From NCBI GenBank assembly GCA_902614355.1, contig CACMKP010000006.1, positions 1 to 64,000 of the forward strand: 64,000 bases of DNA. The letters run 5' to 3'. The position numbers and the translations under genes are program-made. A model generated the notes under the pieces. That model made no database searches, was not told the origin of the DNA, and saw only the letters and a list, made by a program, of their open reading frames with translations. The DNA is from an uncultured Pelagibacteraceae bacterium (GTDB lineage Bacteria > Pseudomonadota > Alphaproteobacteria > Pelagibacterales > Pelagibacteraceae). This document shows positions 3-60,692 of this stretch, piece by piece; the stretch's first letter is position 1; each line of letters opens with the position of its first letter.

Positions 3-488
3 ATTAAAACCGCGATTGCAACAATTGGAATTCTTTTTGATACTACAGACGAACAAGGTGACACAATTATAAATCATCATGGAAGATTAGAATATGTTGG
101 GGATCTAAGCTCATCTTCTGATTCAGACTTTTATTTTATTAATAATCCAAGCACATCATATAATTACACATCAAATAATAAATCAGAACATAACTACAGA
201 GTTGGATATGGTATTGACACAACTTCAATTTCTGGCTGGTCAACAGTGGTAAATTTTGAAAGATTTGGTGCAAGAGGCAAAGGTTATAGTAATGAACTTT
301 ATTTATCTGTAGGATATGTGCCAATTGATGAAATTAAATATGCATTTAAGATAAATGATTTTAAAAATGCTGGACTAGAATTTACTAAAGAAGTGAATGA
401 CTTAGATTTGAAAATTAGTACAAATTATGATTTTTTAAGTGTTGCACCTAATTACAATGCAAATATTTCAATAAGCAATAGCTTTTAA
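3..488 (+). CDS. C-terminal part of an outer-membrane beta-barrel / autotransporter-like protein (truncated by window start)
   Basis: Open frame continues upstream of the listed 246..488 ORF to the window edge; alternating polar/hydrophobic strands and terminal Phe (..NISISNSF) typical of outer-membrane barrels. Confidence 0.55.
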   Translation: MKTAIATIGILFDTTDEQGDTIINHHGRLEYVGDLSSSSDSDFYFINNPSTSYNYTSNNKSEHNYRVGYGIDTTSISGWSTVVNFERFGARGKGYSNELYLSVGYVPIDEIKYAFKINDFKNAGLEFTKEVNDLDLKISTNYDFLSVAPNYNANISISNSF

Positions 489-546
489 TATTTCTTTAGT
501 GTTTGAAAGAAAAAATAAAAGTAGTATATATCAAAAACAATTTAAC

Positions 547-623
547 GGCGGGGTAGCTCAGTTGGTTAGAGCGCAGGACTCATAAGCCTGAGGTCAGTGG
601 TTCGATCCCACTTCCCGCTACCA
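547..623 (+). tRNA. tRNA-Met, anticodon CAT (elongator-like), CCA encoded
   Basis: GGCGGGGTAGCTCAGTTGGTTAGAGC..CTCATAA..GGTTCGATCCC..CCCGCTACCA cloverleaf; anticodon at 581-583. Confidence 0.95.
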
Positions 624-627
624 TTAA

Positions 628-1665
628 ATGAAAAAAATTCTTTCTGTAATTGGTATATGTTTAACATTTGTTTTGTTGACTGACTTATTATTTGGGGCTT
701 ATTTATTAAAATTTACCCCCAAAAAGATCGATCACACAACTATTCACAATGTTTACGATCATGATTTAAAAAAAAGTTTCAAAGGAAATTTAGAATGGTC
801 TCCCGGTGAAACTTATCTTTTTTGTTCAAATAAAAATTCATTTAGAACTTTTTGTGACAAAATGGATTTTGAGTCAAAAGAATTTGATATAGCATTCATA
901 GGAGACAGTTTTACAGAAGGTGTTGGTCTTGATTACAAAGATACTTTTGTTGGAAGAATTGAAAATAAATTTGACAAGTTAAAGATTGCTAATTTAGGCG
1001 TTGTATCTTACTCGCCATCAATTTATTTTACTAAGTTAAGATATTTATTAGAAAATGGTTACAAATTCAAAAGAGTAATCATTTATTTTGATATTAGCGA
1101 TATACATGACGATAATAGAAAATACAGATTAATAGATAACAAAATAAGTAGAAAAAAATCAGTAATTTTATCTAATATCCAAAGAACCTTGAAATCAACT
1201 TTTCCATTTTTGGCATATTCGTCAAAAGTATTGAAGAATGATGTATTTAATGAAACAGATGTAATAAATAAATGTACTTATCTGGATTTCTGTCATGAAA
1301 AAAGTTCGTGGACTTTTAACAATAAGTTTTTTGGAGATAAAGAAATTAGTAAATCATTAGAATTTATGGAGATGACATATGAACTTTTACAGAAAAATGA
1401 TATTAAAATGTCAGTTGGAATTTATCCTTGGCCAGCTCAAATTTTGTACGATAATAGTCAATCAAAGATTGTTAAATTAATGAATAATTTTTGTGTAAAC
1501 AAATGTGAGTTTTTCTTTAACAATTTTACAGATTTTTTTAATGAAATTACTTTTACTGAAAAAGAAAAAATTATTTCTAAGTATTATATTGAAGGTGATG
1601 TACATTTTAATTCTTTAGGTAATGAAAAAATATTTCAAAATTTTGTAAAGACCTTCAAAAATTAA
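628..1665 (+). CDS. SGNH/GDSL-hydrolase-like protein with N-terminal membrane anchor
   Basis: FIGDSFTEGVG block I motif; hydrophobic N-terminus; late DVHFNSLGN motif. Confidence 0.6.
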   Translation: MKKILSVIGICLTFVLLTDLLFGAYLLKFTPKKIDHTTIHNVYDHDLKKSFKGNLEWSPGETYLFCSNKNSFRTFCDKMDFESKEFDIAFIGDSFTEGVGLDYKDTFVGRIENKFDKLKIANLGVVSYSPSIYFTKLRYLLENGYKFKRVIIYFDISDIHDDNRKYRLIDNKISRKKSVILSNIQRTLKSTFPFLAYSSKVLKNDVFNETDVINKCTYLDFCHEKSSWTFNNKFFGDKEISKSLEFMEMTYELLQKNDIKMSVGIYPWPAQILYDNSQSKIVKLMNNFCVNKCEFFFNNFTDFFNEITFTEKEKIISKYYIEGDVHFNSLGNEKIFQNFVKTFKN

Positions 1666-2189
1666 TGTCCAGGAAATTCTATTAAATTTTCAACTTTAAA
1701 ACCTTTATCTTCAAGCTTTTTGCATCCATCTAAATCAAATAAATTTATAACAAAAATAAATGCTGCAACATTAGCATCTGACATCTTAATTAACTTAGCA
1801 GCAGCTTCAGCCGTTCCCCCAGTAGCAATTAAATCATCAATGATTAAAACATTATCATTTTTCTCAAAAGAGTCCTTATGAACTTCAATTGTAGCTGTTC
1901 CATATTCTAACTCGAAATCAACAGAGTGAACTTCTGCAGGAAGTTTATTTTTTTTCCTAAGCATAATAAAAGGTTTTTTCAAAATAAATGAGACTGCTGA
2001 AGCAAAAACAAATCCTCGAGACTCAATTGCAGCGATCTTATCAAAATCATATTTTTTAGATCTTTCAACTATTTGACTAATTGCTTCAGCGAATGCATCT
2101 TTGTCTTTAATTAGTGTAGTAATATCTCTAAAAAGAATCCCCTTTTTTGGATAGTCTTGAATAGATCTTATAAAATCTTTTAAATTCAT
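1662..2189 (-). CDS. apt: adenine phosphoribosyltransferase
   Basis: FRDITTLIKD, ESRGFVFA, VLIIDDLIATGGTAEAAAKLI PRPP motif. Confidence 0.95.
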   Translation of the reverse strand: MNLKDFIRSIQDYPKKGILFRDITTLIKDKDAFAEAISQIVERSKKYDFDKIAAIESRGFVFASAVSFILKKPFIMLRKKNKLPAEVHSVDFELEYGTATIEVHKDSFEKNDNVLIIDDLIATGGTAEAAAKLIKMSDANVAAFIFVINLFDLDGCKKLEDKGFKVENLIEFPGH

Positions 2190-2230: not shown

Positions 2231-3103
2231 ATGACAAGAAATAAATTAGCAATAATTGGTGGAAGCGGTCTATATGATGTAGAGGAATTTACTGAAAGGG
2301 AATTAATAAATTTGAATACTCCTTGGGGGGAGCCATCTGATCAAATTTTAAAAACAATTTATAAAAATAAAGAAGTTTATTTCTTACCAAGACATGGAAG
2401 AGGACATTTCATTTCACCCTCAAACATTAACTTTAGAGCTAATATTGATGCACTGAAACAATTAGGGGTTACAGACATCGTATCTGTTTCAGCTGTCGGG
2501 TCATTAAAAGAGGATTTACCTCCCGGAAAGTTTGTAATAGTAGATCAATTTATAGATAGAACTTTCTCTAGGGTAAAAACATTTTTTGACAATGAAATAG
2601 TTGCACATGTTTCTATGGCTCATCCAACATCTAATGGTTTGATGAACGCATGTGAAGAGGCGATTAAAAAAGAAAAAATTGAATATCAAAGAAATGGCAC
2701 ATATGTTGTTATGGAAGGACCTCAATTTTCAACATTAGCAGAGTCAAATTTATATAGATCTTGGAAAGCAGATGTAATTGGAATGACTAATATGCCAGAA
2801 GCGAAATTAGCTAGAGAAGCAGAAATCAGATATGCCTCAGTTTCAATGGTTACAGATTATGATTGTTGGCATCCAGACCATGAAAATGTTGACGTTCAAC
2901 AAGTAATAAAAGTTCTTTTGGGAAATGCCGCAAAAGCAAAAAACATGATTAAAAATTTAATAGAAAATTTTGAAAATCATATTGATCCTAATGATCCAAC
3001 CAATAATTGTTTAGATGTTGCAATAATTACAGCACCTGAAAAAAGAACAAAAAAAACAATAGACAAACTTAAAACTGTTGCTGGTAGAGTTTTAAATCAA
3101 TGA
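2231..3103 (+). CDS. mtnP: S-methyl-5'-thioadenosine phosphorylase
   Basis: IIGGSGLYD, LPRHGRGH, YVVMEGPQFSTLAESNLYRSW, GMTNMPEAKLAREAEI. Confidence 0.93.
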   Translation: MTRNKLAIIGGSGLYDVEEFTERELINLNTPWGEPSDQILKTIYKNKEVYFLPRHGRGHFISPSNINFRANIDALKQLGVTDIVSVSAVGSLKEDLPPGKFVIVDQFIDRTFSRVKTFFDNEIVAHVSMAHPTSNGLMNACEEAIKKEKIEYQRNGTYVVMEGPQFSTLAESNLYRSWKADVIGMTNMPEAKLAREAEIRYASVSMVTDYDCWHPDHENVDVQQVIKVLLGNAAKAKNMIKNLIENFENHIDPNDPTNNCLDVAIITAPEKRTKKTIDKLKTVAGRVLNQ

Positions 3104-4170
3104 GAATAGAAGGAAAAGAATATCGTACTATTTGGTTTGAAAATAATGTTGTAAAAATTATTGATCAAACAAAACTTCCACACCAATTTATTATTAAAGA
3201 CCTTAAAACTGTTAAGGACTCAATAAATGCGATTAAGGTAATGGAGGTAAGAGGCGCACCTCTAATAGGTGCTACAGCAGCTTATGGAATGGTTTTAGCT
3301 ATAATTGAAAGTAATGACCAATCATTTTTAAAAAAATCTGCAAAAGATTTAATTAGTTCAAGACCAACAGCAATAAATTTAAAGTGGGCTGTCGATAGAA
3401 TGATGAATAAATTATCAGGAGTTAATAGTGATAAAATCTTAAAAATAGCCTTGAATGAAGCAAAAGATATATGTGAAGAGGATGTAAAATTTTGTGAAAA
3501 TATAGGATTAAATGGACTAAAGATTATTGAGGAAATCTATAATAAAAAAAAAGATACAGTTAATATATTAACTCATTGTAACGCAGGTTGGCTTGCAACA
3601 ATAAATTGGGGAACCGCAACCTCTCCAATTTATCATGCACATAAAAAAGGGATTCCCGTTCATGTGTGGGCAGATGAAACTAGACCAAGAAATCAAGGAG
3701 CAAATCTTACATCATATGAATTAAATGAAGAAGGAATTAAAAACACAATCATCGCAGATAACACAGGTGGCATATTAATGCAAAGAGGTGAAGTTGATAT
3801 GTGCATTGTTGGAACAGACAGAACTCTAGCTAATGGAGATGTTTGTAATAAAGTTGGAACTTATCTTAAAGCATTAGCAGCTCATGATAACAAGATTCCT
3901 TTTTATGTTGCACTTCCAAGTTCAACAATTGATTGGAATATAAAAGATCATAAAGATATTCCAATAGAAGAGAGAAATTCAGATGAATTATCTCATGTTG
4001 AAGGTTTAGACCAAAAAGGTGACATAAAGAAAATACAAATTTATCCAAAAAAAAGTATAGCCTTGAATTTAGCTTTTGATGTAACTCCAGCAAAATATGT
4101 TACAGGATTAATAACAGAAAAAGGTGTATGTGAAGCATCAGAAAAAGGACTTAAAGAATTATTTAAATGA
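3100..4170 (+). CDS. mtnA: S-methyl-5-thioribose-1-phosphate isomerase
   Basis: VRGAPLIGATAAYG, ILTHCNAGWLAT, VWADETRPRNQGA, VGTDRTLANGDVCNKVGTY. Confidence 0.95.
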   Translation: MRIEGKEYRTIWFENNVVKIIDQTKLPHQFIIKDLKTVKDSINAIKVMEVRGAPLIGATAAYGMVLAIIESNDQSFLKKSAKDLISSRPTAINLKWAVDRMMNKLSGVNSDKILKIALNEAKDICEEDVKFCENIGLNGLKIIEEIYNKKKDTVNILTHCNAGWLATINWGTATSPIYHAHKKGIPVHVWADETRPRNQGANLTSYELNEEGIKNTIIADNTGGILMQRGEVDMCIVGTDRTLANGDVCNKVGTYLKALAAHDNKIPFYVALPSSTIDWNIKDHKDIPIEERNSDELSHVEGLDQKGDIKKIQIYPKKSIALNLAFDVTPAKYVTGLITEKGVCEASEKGLKELFK

Positions 4171-4823
4171 AAAATTTTGATCAAAGAAATCAGATTATTG
4201 AATATTCGTTAAAATTAAATTCTACAAATCTTTCACCTCTTAGATCAGGCAATATATCATTGAGAGGAATAGAGGATGGCATAGAGGGATACTTAATTAC
4301 TCCATCAGGAAAAAAATATGAAACACTTAAACCTGAAGATATTGTTTTTATGGGTTTAAATGAAGGAGAAGAAAAAAACAATTCAACTAACAAACCATCA
4401 TCAGAATGGAGATTTCATAGAGATATTTATACAAATAAAAAAGAAGCACAGGCAATTGTTCATGCTCATTCTCCACACGCAACAGCTGTATCCTCACATG
4501 GAAAATCAGTACCACCATTTCATTATATGATCGCTCTAGCTGGCGGAGATGACATTAAATGTGCAGAATACGCTACTTTTGGAACAGAAGAGTTATCCAA
4601 AAATGTAATTAAAGCTCTAGAGAATAGAAGCGCTTGTTTAATGTCCAATCACGGCCAGGTTGCTTTTGGAAAAAATTTAGAGGATGCATTTGAGCTTGCA
4701 CAAGAGATAGAAAATATTTGTCATCAATACACTATTGCTTTAAAACTAGGACAACCTAAGATACTTTCATTTGAAGAAATGAAAAAAGTTTTAGATAAGG
4801 CTAAAAACTATAAAAAAAGGTAA
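4167..4823 (+). CDS. class II (FucA/Ald2-like) aldolase
   Basis: TPSGKKYETLKPEDIV, PSSEWRFH, VHAHSPHATAVS, HYMIALAGGDDIKCAEYATFGTEELS, SNHGQ; metal-binding His/Glu conserved. Confidence 0.85.
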   Translation: MKNFDQRNQIIEYSLKLNSTNLSPLRSGNISLRGIEDGIEGYLITPSGKKYETLKPEDIVFMGLNEGEEKNNSTNKPSSEWRFHRDIYTNKKEAQAIVHAHSPHATAVSSHGKSVPPFHYMIALAGGDDIKCAEYATFGTEELSKNVIKALENRSACLMSNHGQVAFGKNLEDAFELAQEIENICHQYTIALKLGQPKILSFEEMKKVLDKAKNYKKR

Positions 4824-4824
4824 G

Positions 4825-5865
4825 ATGATTAAAGTTGGGGAGCATATTACTTTAGATATTATAGGTACTACAAAAGAGTACGATTCTTCAGTTTATGAGA
4901 AAGTTATACATAAAATAGCTAAAGCAGCTAATGTAACTATTTTGAATATTTCAAAATATAAATTTGAACCTCAGGGTTTTACTATTTTAGCTTTATTGGC
5001 TGAAAGTCATATTAGTTTTCATACATTTCCAGAAAATGGAATAATTAGTTTTGATTTTTTTACCTGTGGAAAAATAAGTCCATCGGTGGCAATTGATATT
5101 ATAAAAAAAGAATTTGAACATAAACGTATTGTTAAAAAAGAATTTAATAGAGATACTAGATCTCTTTACCACGATATTTATAGTTCACCAGGATTACAAA
5201 AATCATATGTTGTAAATGAAGTTATAGAGGACTTTAAATCAAAAGTTGGTCAACACATTGAAATTTTAGAATTAGAACAATTTGGAAAATCTTTATTTAT
5301 CGATGGTGAAATACAAGTAGCGGCATCAGATGAACATTTATACAGCTCAACTTTTGTTGGGGCTGGGCTTAAGTTGAATAAAAAAAATGAAAGAGCAGCA
5401 ATAATTGGCGGTGGTGATGGTGGTGTTGCAAGAGAATGTATTTCAAAAAAGTTTAACTTTATAGATTGGTATGAATTAGATCCTGAAGTTGTTGAAGTTT
5501 GCAATAAACATCTTGGTGATATTGGAAAAAAAGCTACAGAAAAAAATTCTGTAAAATGTGTCTGGGGAGATGCTTTTGAAAGTATAAAGACAGTGAATGA
5601 AGATACATATGATCATATTTTTGTTGATTTAAATGATGACCAGTTTTGCATAGATCTGGCCGCTAAAAATATGGACTCTTTAGTTAGAATTCTCAAACCT
5701 AAAGGTGTTATTACTGCACAAGTTGGAAGTCAGGATAAAAAACCTCTTCAAGTTGAAAATTGGTTAAATGTATTCAATCATCATTTTGGAAATACTAATT
5801 TATCCAGAGTTTATATACCTAGTTTTGATTGTTCTTGGAATTTTTCTTCATCAATAAACCACTAA
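4825..5865 (+). CDS. fused S-adenosylmethionine decarboxylase (class 1b SpeD) - spermidine synthase (SpeE)
   Basis: N-terminal LAESHISFHTFPENG pyruvoyl-processing motif and FDFFTCG; C-terminal IIGGGDGGVARE and VFVDL-type aminopropyltransferase motifs. Confidence 0.9.
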   Translation: MIKVGEHITLDIIGTTKEYDSSVYEKVIHKIAKAANVTILNISKYKFEPQGFTILALLAESHISFHTFPENGIISFDFFTCGKISPSVAIDIIKKEFEHKRIVKKEFNRDTRSLYHDIYSSPGLQKSYVVNEVIEDFKSKVGQHIEILELEQFGKSLFIDGEIQVAASDEHLYSSTFVGAGLKLNKKNERAAIIGGGDGGVARECISKKFNFIDWYELDPEVVEVCNKHLGDIGKKATEKNSVKCVWGDAFESIKTVNEDTYDHIFVDLNDDQFCIDLAAKNMDSLVRILKPKGVITAQVGSQDKKPLQVENWLNVFNHHFGNTNLSRVYIPSFDCSWNFSSSINH

Positions 5866-5926: not shown

Positions 5927-6754
5927 ATGAATATATTTAAAAAAACTATTTTTTCAGTTTTACTTTCTTTATTGGTAATAGGAAATGTTAATGCTGATAA
6001 AATAAGAATTGGAACAGAGGGTGCCTATCCTCCATGGAATTCAAAAAATGAGGCAGGTAAGTTAATAGGTTTCGAAGTTGAATTAGCTTACACATTATGC
6101 AGATACATAGGTCAACAGTGTGTGATAGTTGAGCAAGATTGGGATGGAATGATTCCAGCTTTAATCATGAGAAAGTTTGATGCAATAATGGCAGGCATGT
6201 CAATTACTGCAGAAAGACAAAAAGCTATTAGCTTTTCTCAAGGATATGCAGATGAAGTTGCATCTTTAGCAGTTATGAAAGGATCTAGCCTAGAAGGTTT
6301 AGATACATCTGCTGGGATAAATCTTACCAAACCAAATGCTGCAGCTAAAAAAGATCTTAAAACTCTTACTGCTGCATTAGCAGGTAAAACTGTTTGTGTA
6401 CAAACTGCTACAATTCATCAAAACTTTTTAGACTCTGGCGATGTGGGAAAAGTAAATGTCAGAACTTATAAGACACAAGATGAGGTTAATTTAGATTTAG
6501 CGTCTGGAAGATGTGATGCTGCCTTAGCTGCTGCAGTAGCATTTAGTGATTATGCAGAAAAATCTGGCAAGCCAGTTGTTTTAACTGGACCAACTTTTTC
6601 AGGCGGTGCTTTTGGAAATGGTGTTGGGGTAGGTATTAGAAAAGATGATACTGAACTTTTAAGAAAGTTTAATGCTGCAATTAATAAAGCAAGAAAGAAC
6701 GGAGATATTAGTAGAATAGCTACTAAATGGTTCGGTTTTGACGCTTCTATGTAA
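5927..6754 (+). CDS. amino-acid (HisJ/ArgT-like) ABC transporter substrate-binding protein
   Basis: Signal peptide; KIRIGTEGAYPPWNSKNEAGKLIGFEVELAYTLC, WDGMIPALIMRKFDAIMAGMSIT. Confidence 0.9.
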   Translation: MNIFKKTIFSVLLSLLVIGNVNADKIRIGTEGAYPPWNSKNEAGKLIGFEVELAYTLCRYIGQQCVIVEQDWDGMIPALIMRKFDAIMAGMSITAERQKAISFSQGYADEVASLAVMKGSSLEGLDTSAGINLTKPNAAAKKDLKTLTAALAGKTVCVQTATIHQNFLDSGDVGKVNVRTYKTQDEVNLDLASGRCDAALAAAVAFSDYAEKSGKPVVLTGPTFSGGAFGNGVGVGIRKDDTELLRKFNAAINKARKNGDISRIATKWFGFDASM

Positions 6755-6767
6755 TTAAATTTTAGGT

Positions 6768-6794
6768 TTGGCGACTATCATGTATAGTCGCCAA
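6768..6794 (+). promoter_or_regulatory. hairpin between SBP gene and first permease gene (stem TTGGCGACTA/TAGTCGCCAA)
   Basis: 10-11 bp perfect inverted repeat, no following U-tract; permease ATG 5 nt downstream at 6800. Confidence 0.85.
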
Positions 6795-6799
6795 TCTAT

Positions 6800-7492
6800 A
6801 TGGAACTTCTAGCTTTTGGAGATACTGGTTGGGGTGATGAGTTATTTCGTGCAACCCTAATGACCATAGCTGTTTCAATAACAGCAATGTTAATCGGTTT
6901 TAGTTTCGCCGCAGTTTTCACTCCTCTAAAACTATCTAAATTTAAATTTCTAAATTTAATTGCCAATATTTACACAACAATTATCAGAGGTGTCCCTGAA
7001 TTATTAGTTATTTACCTTTTCTTTTTTGGTGGGAGTGGAGCGATTATGTTTGTTGCTTCAATGTTTGGATATAACGAATACATTGAGATTAATGCGTTTC
7101 TTACAGGCTCATTTGCTATTGGTATTATATCTGGTGCTTATTCCACTGAAGTTTTTAGAGGGGCAATTCAATCGATTGATAAAGGTCAATTTGAGGCTGC
7201 AAAGGTTTTAGGATTTAGTAAATTTAAACAGTTTTATAAAATTGTTCTTCCGCAAATGCTAAGACTAGCCATACCAAATTTAAGTAACGTTTGGCAAATT
7301 ACTCTAAAAGATACATCTTTAATCTCTGTAACAGGTTTAGTTGAAATAATGAGACAATCTTACATTGCTGCTGGATCTACAAGAGATCCACTATTCTTTT
7401 ATTCATTCGCTGCAGTTTTATATTTATTACTTACTTTTGTAAGCATGAAGTTAATAAATAGATTAGAAGTTAAGTACAGTAGAGGGTATTGA
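6800..7492 (+). CDS. amino-acid ABC transporter permease (HisQ-like)
   Basis: IIRGVPELLVIYLFFFG and EAAKVLGFSKFKQFYKIVLPQMLRLAIP EAA motif. Confidence 0.92.
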   Translation: MELLAFGDTGWGDELFRATLMTIAVSITAMLIGFSFAAVFTPLKLSKFKFLNLIANIYTTIIRGVPELLVIYLFFFGGSGAIMFVASMFGYNEYIEINAFLTGSFAIGIISGAYSTEVFRGAIQSIDKGQFEAAKVLGFSKFKQFYKIVLPQMLRLAIPNLSNVWQITLKDTSLISVTGLVEIMRQSYIAAGSTRDPLFFYSFAAVLYLLLTFVSMKLINRLEVKYSRGY

Positions 7493-8163
7493 TGGATTTT
7501 GAATTAATGATCAATAGTTTTCCGAAACTATTAAATGCTGCAGTAGTAACTTTAAAACTTCTATCAGTTTCTTTAATTGTGGGGTTATTTATTGGATTAT
7601 TATTTGCAATTTTAAGATTAAATAAAAATATTTTTATAAATAAATTTGCGTATGGATATTCATATATATTTAGAGGAACTCCGTTGTTGGTGCAAATATT
7701 TATTATATATTTTGGATTAGGTCAGATAGAGTCTTTAAGGTCTTCTTTTTTGTGGGTTATACTTAAAGAGCCATACTGGTGTGCAATTATTGCTTTTGCG
7801 TTAAACACTGGTGCTTATACTTCTGAAATTTTGAGGTCTGCTTTTCAAACAATTAAACCAGGCATAATTGAAGCTGGAAAAAGTTTAGGTATATCTAATA
7901 AAATTATATTCTACAAAGTTCAAATTCCTATAGCCATTAGACAATCTCTTCCTGCATATGGGAATGAAATAATACTAATGCTCAAAGGTACCTCGTTAGC
8001 AAGCACAGTTACATTGATGGATTTAACGGGCGTAGCAAAATATATAATATCAACTACTTTTAAACCGATTGAAGTATTTATAGTTGCAGGTGGAATTTAT
8101 CTATTTATGACTTTTATAATTCACAACGTAATTAAGTTTTTAGAAAAAAAATATAGCTACTAA
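7489..8163 (+). CDS. amino-acid ABC transporter permease (HisM-like)
   Basis: IFRGTPLLVQIFIIYFG, EAGKSLGISNKIIFYKVQIPIAIRQSLP. Confidence 0.92.
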   Translation: MMDFELMINSFPKLLNAAVVTLKLLSVSLIVGLFIGLLFAILRLNKNIFINKFAYGYSYIFRGTPLLVQIFIIYFGLGQIESLRSSFLWVILKEPYWCAIIAFALNTGAYTSEILRSAFQTIKPGIIEAGKSLGISNKIIFYKVQIPIAIRQSLPAYGNEIILMLKGTSLASTVTLMDLTGVAKYIISTTFKPIEVFIVAGGIYLFMTFIIHNVIKFLEKKYSY

Positions 8164-55874: not shown

Positions 55875-57599
55875 TTATCTATTAGATAACCATATAGTTT
55901 GACAAGGATCTAGTTTAATTCTTTTATCAAGTGTAAAAAATATCTTACTCCCTAATAAGTCTTTATATTTTAAAAACTCTTGATTTAACCTAAAATATTG
56001 CATTTTTGATGAGAGATTTGTTATGCAAATTATAGTTTGTTTTTTATCAATACTTTTTCTTTTAAAAGAAAATATTTTTGGTCCAAGATTAATATTATCT
56101 CTACTTGCGTTTGGATGAAATGCTTTTTGTTTTTTTTTGATACTCAGTAGATTGGAAATTTTTTTATAAAAATAATTCTCTTTAGAGTCTTTATTATTAA
56201 GTTTGTTTGAAATATTTTTTAAATTCCATTTATATCTATTAACATCTCGATTATTTCCAGTAATCACAAATTTTGCTTCATCATTAGATGTACCAAACAT
56301 GGAGTTGAAATAAATCGCAGGCACTCCTTCGAACGCAATCATAATTGAATGAGCAGAAATATATCTTTCAAATGCAAACTTGCCATTATCATAATTAGTT
56401 TTTTTTAAAGCATCGAATATCGTTATATTTGCCTCGTAAACCTTTTTTGATTTATTTTGAATTTTTCTATAAGAAAACTTTGATCCATTTTTTTTTAACC
56501 TGTTAAGAAAATCTTTTAAAACTTTGTTGCTTAATAATCCTTCAGTGGGTCTCATTCCAATTCCATCATGAGATGCAATGAAATTTAAATAACAGTTTCC
56601 ATTTTTACTTTTTGGAAGTTTTTTACTCCAACTATAAAGATAAGAGTTGTTTTCAAATAAAAAAGCATGGATTAATAAAGGTGGTAAGGAAAAATTATAT
56701 ATCCAGTTAGCTTCATCATTTTTTCCAAAGTAACTTAAATTTTCTTTTTCAGGCAAGTTTGTTTCTGTAACTATTAAGGTTTGGGTATTAAGTAAGCCAG
56801 AAATCATTCTTAGGAGTTTTATGATTTCATGTGTTTTACTTAAGTTAATACATTTTGTTCCACTTTCTTTCCAAAGATAAGCAATTGCATCTAACCTAAA
56901 AATAGTTATTCCATGATTAATTAGATTAATCATGATCTTTATAAAGCGCAATAACACTGCTGGGTTTTTAAAATTTAAATCTAATTGGTCAGGACTGAAG
57001 GTTCGCCAAAGATAATCAGTTCTGTTAAAAATATTTATTTTTTTTAAAAGTTTATGATCTCTTGGTCTTACAACTTTTGAAGTATTAAATTTTGAGTCTA
57101 CAGTTAAAAAATAATCTTTACCGGGTCTTTTTGCTTTTAAAAAATTTTTAAACCACAAACCTCTTGCAGATGAATGATTTATGACAATATCTGCCATGAC
57201 ATCATTTTTTTTTGAAAAACTTTTTATATCCGACCAATTGCCAAGCTTACCATCTATTTTGTAATGATCTTTTACTGCAAAGCCACTATCACTGCTTGAT
57301 GGATAAAACGGTAAAAAGTGAACAGTGTTAAAATTTTTACTTAATCTTTTTTGAAAGAAGTTTTTAAATACCTTAATTGAATGTTTTTGATTTTGTGCAA
57401 AAATGCTATCACCATAGCATATAAGCATTGAAGTTTTTTCAGATATATTTTTTTTCTTTTTTTTATTTCTTCGGTTGAATTGGTTTAAAAGCTCTACAAT
57501 CTCGCTAGTATAAAAATTAACATCTTCTTTATTGCAGTGTGATTGATAAATATTATTTAGTTTAGAGGAGATCTTTTTTTGGTTTGTTTTGGATAACAT
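55875..57599 (-). CDS. GH13_18 sucrose-phosphorylase-like, possibly glucosylglycerate phosphorylase
   Basis: VHFLPFYPSSSDSGFAVKDHYKID, ADIVINHSS, ITIFRLDAIAYLWKE, VTETNLPEKENLSYFG. Confidence 0.8.
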   Translation of the reverse strand: MLSKTNQKKISSKLNNIYQSHCNKEDVNFYTSEIVELLNQFNRRNKKKKKNISEKTSMLICYGDSIFAQNQKHSIKVFKNFFQKRLSKNFNTVHFLPFYPSSSDSGFAVKDHYKIDGKLGNWSDIKSFSKKNDVMADIVINHSSARGLWFKNFLKAKRPGKDYFLTVDSKFNTSKVVRPRDHKLLKKINIFNRTDYLWRTFSPDQLDLNFKNPAVLLRFIKIMINLINHGITIFRLDAIAYLWKESGTKCINLSKTHEIIKLLRMISGLLNTQTLIVTETNLPEKENLSYFGKNDEANWIYNFSLPPLLIHAFLFENNSYLYSWSKKLPKSKNGNCYLNFIASHDGIGMRPTEGLLSNKVLKDFLNRLKKNGSKFSYRKIQNKSKKVYEANITIFDALKKTNYDNGKFAFERYISAHSIMIAFEGVPAIYFNSMFGTSNDEAKFVITGNNRDVNRYKWNLKNISNKLNNKDSKENYFYKKISNLLSIKKKQKAFHPNASRDNINLGPKIFSFKRKSIDKKQTIICITNLSSKMQYFRLNQEFLKYKDLLGSKIFFTLDKRIKLDPCQTIWLSNR

Positions 57600-58819
57600 T
57601 AACTGTATTTTTTGTTATCCTCATTAACAACTTTTTCTAATCTTCCTAAAAAATCAGGTATCGCGCTTTTAACTCTACTCCATGTAGGTATAAAAGGTGT
57701 ATCCATTGGATTGAGAACAAAGGCTTCTCCAGCTTTCATTATATTTATAGCAAATAATTCAACAGCTTTTTCTTCTGTATGAGAGTCAAATTTTAATCCG
57801 TTCATATATGCATCACTTCGATAAATATCGATTAAATCTAAGGCAGATCTATAATAGGTTGCCTTTAAAGATCTGAATTTTTCTCTACCGAATGTATTTC
57901 CTTGAGTAGCTAATTTTTTAATAAATGTTTTTATTATATCAATGGACATTCTAGATAAACCTTTAGTTTCATCGTCACTAGATAAAACTTGATGTTTATG
58001 ATCATAAGTATCAGCTAAATCAACCTGACAAATATTTTGTGGTGAAAAACTTCTTTGCATTTCAGACAAAATACCAACTTCAATTCCCCAATCAGAAGAT
58101 ATTCTTAATTCTGGTAGAACATTCCGTCTAAAAGAAAACTCACCAGCTAAAGGATATTTAAAAGACTTCATAAATTCTAAATAGCTACTCGGACCAATAG
58201 TTTTCTCAAGCGCAGTTAATAAAGGAAAAACAAGTAATCTTGCAACACGCCCATTCATTTTTCCATTAGCAACTCTTGGATAGTATCCCTTACAAAATTC
58301 AAAGTTAAAAAGAGGGTTCACAACTGGATAAAAAAGTTTAGCCAACATCCTTCTATCGTAAGTTTTGATGTCACAATCATGGAGAGCAACTGATCGCGCG
58401 GTATCTCTTGCAATAGACATTCCAATACAATACCAAACATTTCTGCCTTTACCGAGTTCACTTGGTGCCAGATCTTTTTTTTTTAATTCTTTATCAAGTT
58501 TTTTTAACTCAGGTCCATCATTCCAAAGAAGAGAGAAGGGTGTTTTGAGTTTTTTAAAAAATTTCCAGGCTTTTTTTGCTTGTTTCTCATTGGCTTTATC
58601 AAGACCAACAATAATATGATCTAAATATTTTGTTTTACTAATTTCCTCTACAATATTAGGTAAAGCGTTACCCTCTAGCTCTGAATAAAGACAGGGTAAA
58701 ATTAACTCCATCTTTCTCTCTTTAGAAAATTTTAATAAGTCTTTCTCAATTTCTGTCGTAGATCTTGTCCCAAAATCATGCAAAGTCGAGATTATTCCAT
58801 TTTGAGAAAATTCACTCAT
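57599..58819 (-). CDS. glucosyl-3-phosphoglycerate synthase-like glycosyltransferase (GT81/GpgS-like)
   Basis: LPCLYSELEGNALPNIVEEI, GKGRNVWYCIGMSIARDTARSVALHDCDIKTYDR, GEFSFRRNVL, DWGIEVGILSEM. Confidence 0.8.
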   Translation of the reverse strand: MSEFSQNGIISTLHDFGTRSTTEIEKDLLKFSKERKMELILPCLYSELEGNALPNIVEEISKTKYLDHIIVGLDKANEKQAKKAWKFFKKLKTPFSLLWNDGPELKKLDKELKKKDLAPSELGKGRNVWYCIGMSIARDTARSVALHDCDIKTYDRRMLAKLFYPVVNPLFNFEFCKGYYPRVANGKMNGRVARLLVFPLLTALEKTIGPSSYLEFMKSFKYPLAGEFSFRRNVLPELRISSDWGIEVGILSEMQRSFSPQNICQVDLADTYDHKHQVLSSDDETKGLSRMSIDIIKTFIKKLATQGNTFGREKFRSLKATYYRSALDLIDIYRSDAYMNGLKFDSHTEEKAVELFAINIMKAGEAFVLNPMDTPFIPTWSRVKSAIPDFLGRLEKVVNEDNKKYS

Positions 58820-58827
58820 ATTAAATT

Positions 58828-59634
58828 TTAGACATTATATTTTAATTTATCTAGAGCCTTTTTAATCACATCAGCCCAGCCTTCAGGAGATGGCTTATTA
58901 GAAAATATAAGATTATCAATATTAATTTGGTCAAGTTTAAATTGATCATTAAAAACTAAGCAAGGCACATCACAATTTTTTAACATATCTAGATCATTAT
59001 AATTATCACCAACAGCAATTGTTTTTATTTTGTCTTTGGTTTTTTTTAGAATTCTAATAACTTTATTCATTGATTTCACTTTATTGACGTTATCACAAAG
59101 ATTTGAAACACGTCCACCTTCCTGTAGAGTTAATGAGTTAGAACTTAAAATTTTTAATAATCTATTTTTCTCTTTTTTTTCTCCGCTAAATAAAAATGGT
59201 AAAGTATATTTTCTGTTCAAAACATCCTTAAGTTTAGCATCCTTTTGTCCAAAAATTATTTCCTGTCTTTTTTTATCTAGTTTAGAAATTAAAAGACATT
59301 TATCCCTTATCTTCTCTGGTATTTTTAAATTAAAAATTTTTAACAATTCTTCTTTTTCTCTGCTCAAAATGATTTTGTTCGGAAAATTAGAGTTGATTAA
59401 GTTTAATCCATGTATTGAAGAACCATTCTCTGAAATATAAGGAAGCTCAACACCTAGCTCCTCATTAAATTTTTCAATTTCTTTTTCAGTTTTGCTAGAA
59501 TTTGGAATGATAATTATTTCGTTGTTAATAAGTTCTTTAATATAATCTTTAATTGGATCAAATTTAAATGTTTCTCTGTGTAATAGAGTACCATCAAGAT
59601 CAGTAAAAATTATTAGTGAATTCTTCTTTTTCAA
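58828..59634 (-). CDS. mannosyl/glucosyl-3-phosphoglycerate phosphatase-family HAD hydrolase
   Basis: IFTDLDGTLLHRETF, ISENGSSI, AVGDNYNDLDMLKNCD; neighbour of GpgS-like gene. Confidence 0.8.
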   Translation of the reverse strand: MKKKNSLIIFTDLDGTLLHRETFKFDPIKDYIKELINNEIIIIPNSSKTEKEIEKFNEELGVELPYISENGSSIHGLNLINSNFPNKIILSREKEELLKIFNLKIPEKIRDKCLLISKLDKKRQEIIFGQKDAKLKDVLNRKYTLPFLFSGEKKEKNRLLKILSSNSLTLQEGGRVSNLCDNVNKVKSMNKVIRILKKTKDKIKTIAVGDNYNDLDMLKNCDVPCLVFNDQFKLDQINIDNLIFSNKPSPEGWADVIKKALDKLKYNV

Positions 59635-59639
59635 TGAGA

Positions 59640-60692
59640 CTATCTTATCCTTTTTTTTGATTTATCAAAAAATAATACTTTATCTTTTGAAAAAGAAATT
59701 TTTGATGACTGTCCAGTCACATTTTCTGAAGATTTGATTATGATTTCATTTCCAGAAATTTTTGTATAAATAATTTTTTCAAAACCTAAATTTTCAATTA
59801 AATCTACTTTTACATCTAACTTGATTTCATGATCATTGTTTATGCTTATATTTTCAGGTCTAACTCCTAAATAAATTTCATCTTTAAACTCAAAATTTTC
59901 AAAAGTTATCTTATTTTTAAAGAGTTCTATTGTGTTTGAATTGATAATCTGATCTTTGTTAATTTTGATAATATTCATTTTTGGAGAACCAATAAATTCG
60001 GCTACAAAAATATTATTTGGATCTGAATATATATCATTAGGTGTTCCAAACTGTTCAATAATTCCATTATTAAGAACCACAATTCGGTCAGCTAATGTCA
60101 TCGCCTCTATTTGATCATGAGTTACATAAATAATATTTGACTTTAATTTCTTATGTAATTTAGATATCTCAACTCTCATTTCAGATCTTAAAGCTGCATC
60201 CAAGTTTGATAAGGGCTCATCAAATAAGAATACTTTTGGATTTCTTGTAATTGCTCTTCCAATTGCAACTCTTTGTCTTTGTCCGCCGGAAAGTTGCTTA
60301 GGTTTTCTTTCTAACAAATCTTCTATTTGAAGTGTAGCAGCTGCACTTTTGACTTTATCATGAATTTCATTTTTTGGAATTTTTTCCATTTTTAGTCCAA
60401 AAGACATATTTTCAAAAACATTCATGTGAGGATACAAAGCATATGATTGAAAAACCATTGCAATTTCACGTTTAGAAGGAATTAGATTATTAATTAATTT
60501 TGTATCTAAGTAAATTTCTCCTTGATCAATACTTTCTAATCCTGAAATCATCCTTAATAAAGTTGATTTTCCACAACCTGAAGGACCTACTAAAACAATA
60601 AACTCTCCATCGCCAATGTTTATGTTAAAATTTTTTATAACTTTATTGTTGTTAAAAGATTTTTCGAGATTTTTAATTGTAATTTTAGACAT
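59640..60692 (-). CDS. sugar ABC transporter ATP-binding protein (MalK/UgpC-like)
   Basis: GPSGCGKSTLLRMISGLE, LSGGQRQRVAIGRAI, VFLFDEPLSNLDAALR, YVTHDQIEAMTLADRI. Confidence 0.95.
   Translation of the reverse strand: MSKITIKNLEKSFNNNKVIKNFNINIGDGEFIVLVGPSGCGKSTLLRMISGLESIDQGEIYLDTKLINNLIPSKREIAMVFQSYALYPHMNVFENMSFGLKMEKIPKNEIHDKVKSAAATLQIEDLLERKPKQLSGGQRQRVAIGRAITRNPKVFLFDEPLSNLDAALRSEMRVEISKLHKKLKSNIIYVTHDQIEAMTLADRIVVLNNGIIEQFGTPNDIYSDPNNIFVAEFIGSPKMNIIKINKDQIINSNTIELFKNKITFENFEFKDEIYLGVRPENISINNDHEIKLDVKVDLIENLGFEKIIYTKISGNEIIIKSSENVTGQSSKISFSKDKVLFFDKSKKRIR

Follow-up and report, generated by a model that had tools for sequence, protein, structure and literature searches.

Which reactions does the speD-speE fusion gene of an uncultured Pelagibacteraceae bacterium serve, and what becomes of the 5'-methylthioadenosine (MTA) that its aminopropyltransferase half would release? 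SAR11 bacteria rank with the most abundant cells of the ocean and depend on reduced sulfur; where the methylthio group released in polyamine synthesis ends up is therefore a real question. The window analyzed here is the whole stretch of 64,000 nucleotides at positions 1 to 64,000 of contig CACMKP010000006.1 (assembly GCA_902614355.1). The SAR11 SpeD-SpeE fusion itself is already known: Green et al. 2011 (cited as ref. 69 in PMC8437039) were the first to describe it in Ca. Pelagibacter, and Li et al. 2024 expressed the HTCC1062 and HTCC7211 fusions in E. coli (PMC11107197). According to that report, an E. coli strain deleted for speD regained spermidine with either fusion, which indicates a functional pyruvoyl decarboxylase in these orthologs; the products also included spermine/thermospermine, and norspermidine when diaminopropane was given. 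With the fusion being settled biology, its operon context matters more. The position of the gene in an MTA-disposing operon is less described than the fusion, was absent from an earlier sequence-only reading of this DNA, and renders the fate of the methylthio group testable.

The gene forms one uninterrupted ATG-to-stop frame with both Pfam domain sets (Table 1), and the single-chain SpeD-SpeE fusion proposed in the sequence-only reading was thus confirmed, with support well above any chance level. In the N-terminal part, the AdoMet_dc model matched residues 7-109 with 96.8 bits (cut-off 25 bits), and the NCBIfam model SAM_DCase_Bsu (TIGR03330) scored 98.1 bits, above its cut-off of 75.65 bits; together with the alignment to solved SpeD structures, these scores bear out the earlier assignment to class 1b AdoMet decarboxylases. 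The roles of the processing Ser and of the catalytic His and Cys are established for class 1b SpeD. S61, H66 and C81 of the fusion aligned with these residues in the T. maritima and A. aeolicus enzymes, the corresponding segments of the window protein being AES61HISFH66 and TC81G. The alignment therefore places the autoprocessing Glu-Ser pair at E60-S61, as originally proposed, with AGT at 5005-5007 as the Ser61 codon. The 60-aa beta chain and the pyruvoyl-alpha-SpeE chain predicted from this site likewise hold by alignment and agree with the ortholog rescue (PMC11107197).

Table 1. Coordinates of the features at and around the speD-speE locus; positions refer to the window unless a locus is given.
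Feature	Position	Strand	Evidence and remarks
apt, adenine phosphoribosyltransferase	1662..2189	-	TIGR01090 over cut-off; divergent from the operon
mtnP, 5'-methylthioadenosine phosphorylase	2231..3103	+	NF006492 and TIGR01694 over cut-off
mtnA, methylthioribose-1-phosphate isomerase	3100..4170	+	TIGR00512 420 bits, over cut-off
Class II aldolase, FucA/Ald2/DrdA-like, 218 aa, predicted 5-methylthioribulose-1-phosphate aldolase	4167..4823	+	PF00596 7.5e-52; PDB matches 1fua, 6btd
speD-speE fusion gene	4825..5865	+	uninterrupted ATG-to-stop frame, 346 aa
Class 1b AdoMet decarboxylase domain	4825..5151	+	residues 1-109; PF02675 1.2e-27; TIGR03330 over cut-off; aligns to 2iii, 1tlu, 1vr7
Predicted autoprocessing site, codons E60-S61	5002..5007	+	alignment with T. 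maritima and A. aeolicus SpeD; invariant in 100 sequences
Aminopropyltransferase (SpeE) domain	5179..5862	+	residues 119-346; GGGDGG 195-200, D268xxD271, PSF 332-334
Basic amino acid ABC transporter	5927..8163	+	binding protein 5927-6754, permeases 6800-7492 and 7489-8163; conserved downstream neighbour
MTA-nucleosidase-like protein, 175-177 aa	L149:3253-3780, L085:903-1436, L193-L195		solved MTA/SAH nucleosidases longer, about 230 aa

The C-terminal part matched Spermine_synt_N (residues 119-165, 5.6e-7) and Spermine_synth (PF01564, residues 170-340, 7e-23). It has the features of SpeE membership, namely the Spermine_synth fold domain, the GGG(D/E)G(G/A) motif and the catalytic Asp loop DxxD (D268-L-N-D271); the stretch GGGDGGVARE, which had marked it as an aminopropyltransferase, spans residues 195-204. 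The NCBIfam SpeE equivalog models stayed far below their cut-offs (TIGR00417, 96 versus 249.55 bits; NF002010, 122 versus 260 bits), which indicates that this half is divergent; judged by these scores, it is a divergent superfamily member outside the TIGR00417/NF002010 equivalog groups. It stops 11 residues past PSFD, whereas split and other fused SpeE proteins run approximately 50 residues longer, a full-length C-terminus after the PTYP/PSF motif being usual for SpeE but not strictly defining. The early end is common to the SAR11 homologs and a member of a second genus of the family, and YSS stands where typical SpeE carries YHE across the SAR11 homologs; no mention of either trait was met in the literature searched, which did not include Green et al. 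2011. Given the below-cut-off scores, the YSS motif and the missing C-terminal segment, the preferred SpeE substrate is not readable from the sequence. Structure prediction, suggested earlier as a check, was run with AlphaFold on the fusion with an input of 28 SAR11 sequences, but these were too similar and the model was too poor to use (mean pLDDT 50).

The top named matches to the fusion were all from Pelagibacteraceae (SAR11), with 92-99% identity; entries under the name Ca. P. ubique (L053, L055) show 96% identity with the window protein. A complete fusion frame of 346-349 aa was found in 101 Pelagibacteraceae loci, none interrupted between its two domains by a stop codon or frameshift; locus L084 was not caught by the search pattern, yet has a single open frame. 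E60, S61, H62, H66, C81, GGGDGG and D268-L-N-D271 were invariant among 100 distinct fusion sequences, so that neither an interrupted frame nor a loss of catalytic residues, which the sequence-only reading had named as grounds for giving it up, was observed. Median dN/dS values against 97-99 relatives were 0.068 for the SpeD half and 0.025 for the SpeE half; both halves are under purifying selection. Counting the genome that contains the window, 20 of 25 from this genus have the gene, and the second-genus protein has the same length and 62% identity. In f2 (G025-G040), a sister family within the same order, the fusion was absent from all 16 genomes, most of them >90% complete, with one weak SpeD match.

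The comparison of fused and split genes proposed with the earlier reading was carried out on 289 alphaproteobacterial genomes, 115 of which have a SpeD domain; it considered the longest open frames and left out those well under ~300 aa, which cannot hold the fusion. Further fusions were detected in G048 (L156, 418 aa) and G164 (L159, 450 aa). These likewise have SpeD followed by SpeE in one chain, with AESHIS or SESHVS as processing site, but differ from the window protein in their length, in their full-length SpeE C-terminus and in an identity to it of only ~24-25%. With 56-57% identity, the SpeE part of L156 is much closer to split SpeE of Alphaproteobacteria, which suggests separate fusion events; the low identity of the SAR11 protein to these two fusions agrees with published work that concluded on independent fusions. 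The L159 protein (435-1784, minus strand) has an unusual SpeE motif (IIGSSEGV, MDLPDEQ), and a similar gene at L158 contains an in-frame stop within the SpeD part. In the fusions of G087 and G212, the SpeD partner is degenerate. At L161:741-2003 (minus strand) and L162:4273-5508 (plus strand), ETSNI and AHFAEN replace AESHIS and HTFPE with the Ser, His and Cys positions kept; the genomes of both loci also have a normal SpeD, and a change of function of the degenerate half is possible. A phage-borne fusion was not supported, as a scan of viral contigs gave no relatives.

In the window, the fusion gene is the fourth and last of a tight row mtnP-mtnA-aldolase-speDE, in which mtnA shares 4 bases with mtnP and another 4 with the aldolase gene, and 1 base separates the aldolase gene from speDE. 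In 90 of 97 loci, the gene immediately preceding speDE is that of the aldolase, mtnA lies close upstream in 77 of 78, and the second genus has the same arrangement. The aldolase gave only a partial match to MtnB and scored best with fuculose-phosphate aldolase models, under their cut-offs; the operon context and the similarity to FucA and 6btd suggest that it acts on 5-methylthioribulose-1-phosphate. An MtnP form of the MTA-to-DHAP shunt, composed of MtnP, MtnA and Ald2, has been reported for R. rubrum and R. palustris (PMC10986504). By its gene content, the mtnP-mtnA-aldolase row is this form of the shunt and would consume the SpeE by-product MTA. None of 26 genomes from the genus has ARD, the dioxygenase of classical oxygen-dependent Met salvage.

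Five of 101 genus genomes carry, in place of mtnP-mtnA-aldolase, a gene for a 175-177-aa MTA/SAH-nucleosidase-like protein, and in all five the swap site is identical, exactly between apt and speDE. MtnA was not found genome-wide in the two swap genomes checked, one of which is 100% complete. A replacement by a nucleosidase-like gene at the same place supports the notion that the neighbours of speDE handle the MTA formed by its product. Neither the speDE-shunt arrangement nor the nucleosidase swap in SAR11 was described in the literature searched, most subscription journals lying outside its scope. A different variant is seen in G013, where a 652-aa class II aldolase-like frame on the opposite strand separates mtnA from speDE. 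Frames of this kind (602-652 aa, resembling a class II aldolase fusion) lie between mtnA and speDE, on the strand opposite to them, at L189:3195-5153 (minus strand) and L190:2520-4328 (plus strand); the small aldolase gene is missing next to speDE in these genomes, and the large frame may take over the aldolase step.

From these data, we consider it highly probable that the window gene encodes the SAR11 bifunctional AdoMet decarboxylase-aminopropyltransferase, which would cleave itself at Glu60/Ser61 and whose MTA would be consumed by the same operon. By homology, the single chain is expected to cut itself between Glu60 and Ser61 into the beta chain and an alpha-SpeE chain of 286 residues, the first of which would become the pyruvoyl cofactor. 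The SpeD half would then convert AdoMet to decarboxylated AdoMet, and the SpeE half would transfer the aminopropyl group to putrescine, two steps shown for the orthologs; by analogy with the latter, spermidine or diaminopropane may also serve as acceptors, and the window protein probably makes spermidine as well as spermine/thermospermine. MtnP would split MTA into adenine, to be reclaimed by Apt, and methylthioribose-1-phosphate; MtnA would isomerize the latter, and the class II aldolase would release DHAP and methylthioacetaldehyde. The operon would thereby lead from AdoMet via polyamine back to central metabolism. With about even confidence, we extend this to a wider reading in which the fusion is the production end of an AdoMet-polyamine-DHAP operon, SAR11 sheds MTA without oxygen-dependent Met salvage and perhaps recovers the methylthio sulfur, and in some members a single small MTA nucleosidase gene has taken the place of the three shunt genes.

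The direction of the reaction has been viewed differently by Noell et al. 2021, who propose that SAR11 SpeE also runs in reverse in living cells (PMC8437039). Metabolite changes in polyamine-fed HTCC7211 described there would fit an enzyme that mainly scavenges by breaking down imported spermidine and norspermidine, but this support is indirect. Expression in E. coli demonstrated synthesis (PMC11107197), and both the AdoMet decarboxylase domain and the MTA-disposal operon suit forward synthesis; a mainly reverse function is unlikely. The fusion of two consecutive enzymes could also be taken to mean that decarboxylated AdoMet is channelled between the two active sites, a possibility raised in the sequence-only reading; the AlphaFold model is too poor to judge this, fixed-ratio expression in a streamlined genome accounts for the fusion equally well, and we regard channelling as an unsupported and rather improbable proposal. 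A neofunctionalised SpeD half that decarboxylates arginine or ornithine instead of AdoMet is highly improbable: phages infecting the same host do carry SpeD-derived arginine decarboxylases (PMC9992855), but the SpeD domain of the window protein scores over the TIGR03330 cut-off and is fused to SpeE, and a Ca. Pelagibacter ortholog rescues spermidine in the speD deletion strain (PMC11107197).

Forward synthesis by the bifunctional enzyme calls for an acceptor amine, which the sequence-only reading had expected to come from elsewhere or by uptake. No ornithine decarboxylase or agmatinase gene lies near the fusion gene, and searches of its own genome with both families gave no match within the window. 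Elsewhere in the same genome (assembly 78% complete), an agmatinase-like gene (C2:54932-55750) and a PotA gene over cut-off (C2:62941-63891) were identified, so that the earlier remark on the acceptor amine holds for the window only. Near relatives, including L010/G330 with a 99% identical fusion, have a second gene of the ornithine/arginine-decarboxylase type close to a deoxyhypusine-synthase-type gene, and the G012 cluster combines the decarboxylase with a 1,9-bis(guanidino)-5-azanonane synthase-type protein (over cut-off) and an agmatinase. For the Ca. Pelagibacter representative of this type of decarboxylase, arginine rather than ornithine is the reported substrate (PMC9992855); the gene may be missing from the window's assembly through incompleteness. 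We infer that putrescine obtained via agmatine hydrolysis, together with uptake, is the likeliest supply.

Two further candidates for amine supply were rejected. The ornithine/arginine decarboxylase family match at C1:188258-188986 reads, by sequence and neighbours, as lysA beside an argH-like frame. The PotA-like gene at 59640-60692 of the window is of the UgpC/MalK type and sits with glucosyl-phosphoglycerate genes. The region 55875-60692 (minus strand) contains, beside this ATPase gene, glucosyl-3-phosphoglycerate synthase, mannosyl-3-phosphoglycerate phosphatase-type and sucrose phosphorylase-type genes, and probably represents a gene cluster for glucosylglycerate or a sugar osmolyte. A SAR11 deoxyhypusine-synthase homolog at L146:1904-2944 (minus strand) scored 584 bits with the 1,9-bis(guanidino)-5-azanonane synthase model (cut-off 500 bits), which suggests that it joins two agmatines rather than making homospermidine directly from putrescine.

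Among characterized proteins, the closest counterparts of the window protein are the HTCC1062 (WP_011282223) and HTCC7211 (WP_008544956) fusions, which derive from the same bacterial group and share the domain order, the N-terminal class 1b SpeD and the divergent C-terminal aminopropyltransferase; no functional difference was found in this comparison, which draws on their published description. The operon resembles the shunt of R. rubrum and R. palustris (PMC10986504) in that phosphorylase, isomerase and class II aldolase are encoded in one operon and no ARD dioxygenase takes part. Unlike in that system, the aldolase substrate in SAR11 is a prediction, and the SAR11 operon includes the polyamine enzyme that would itself produce the MTA.
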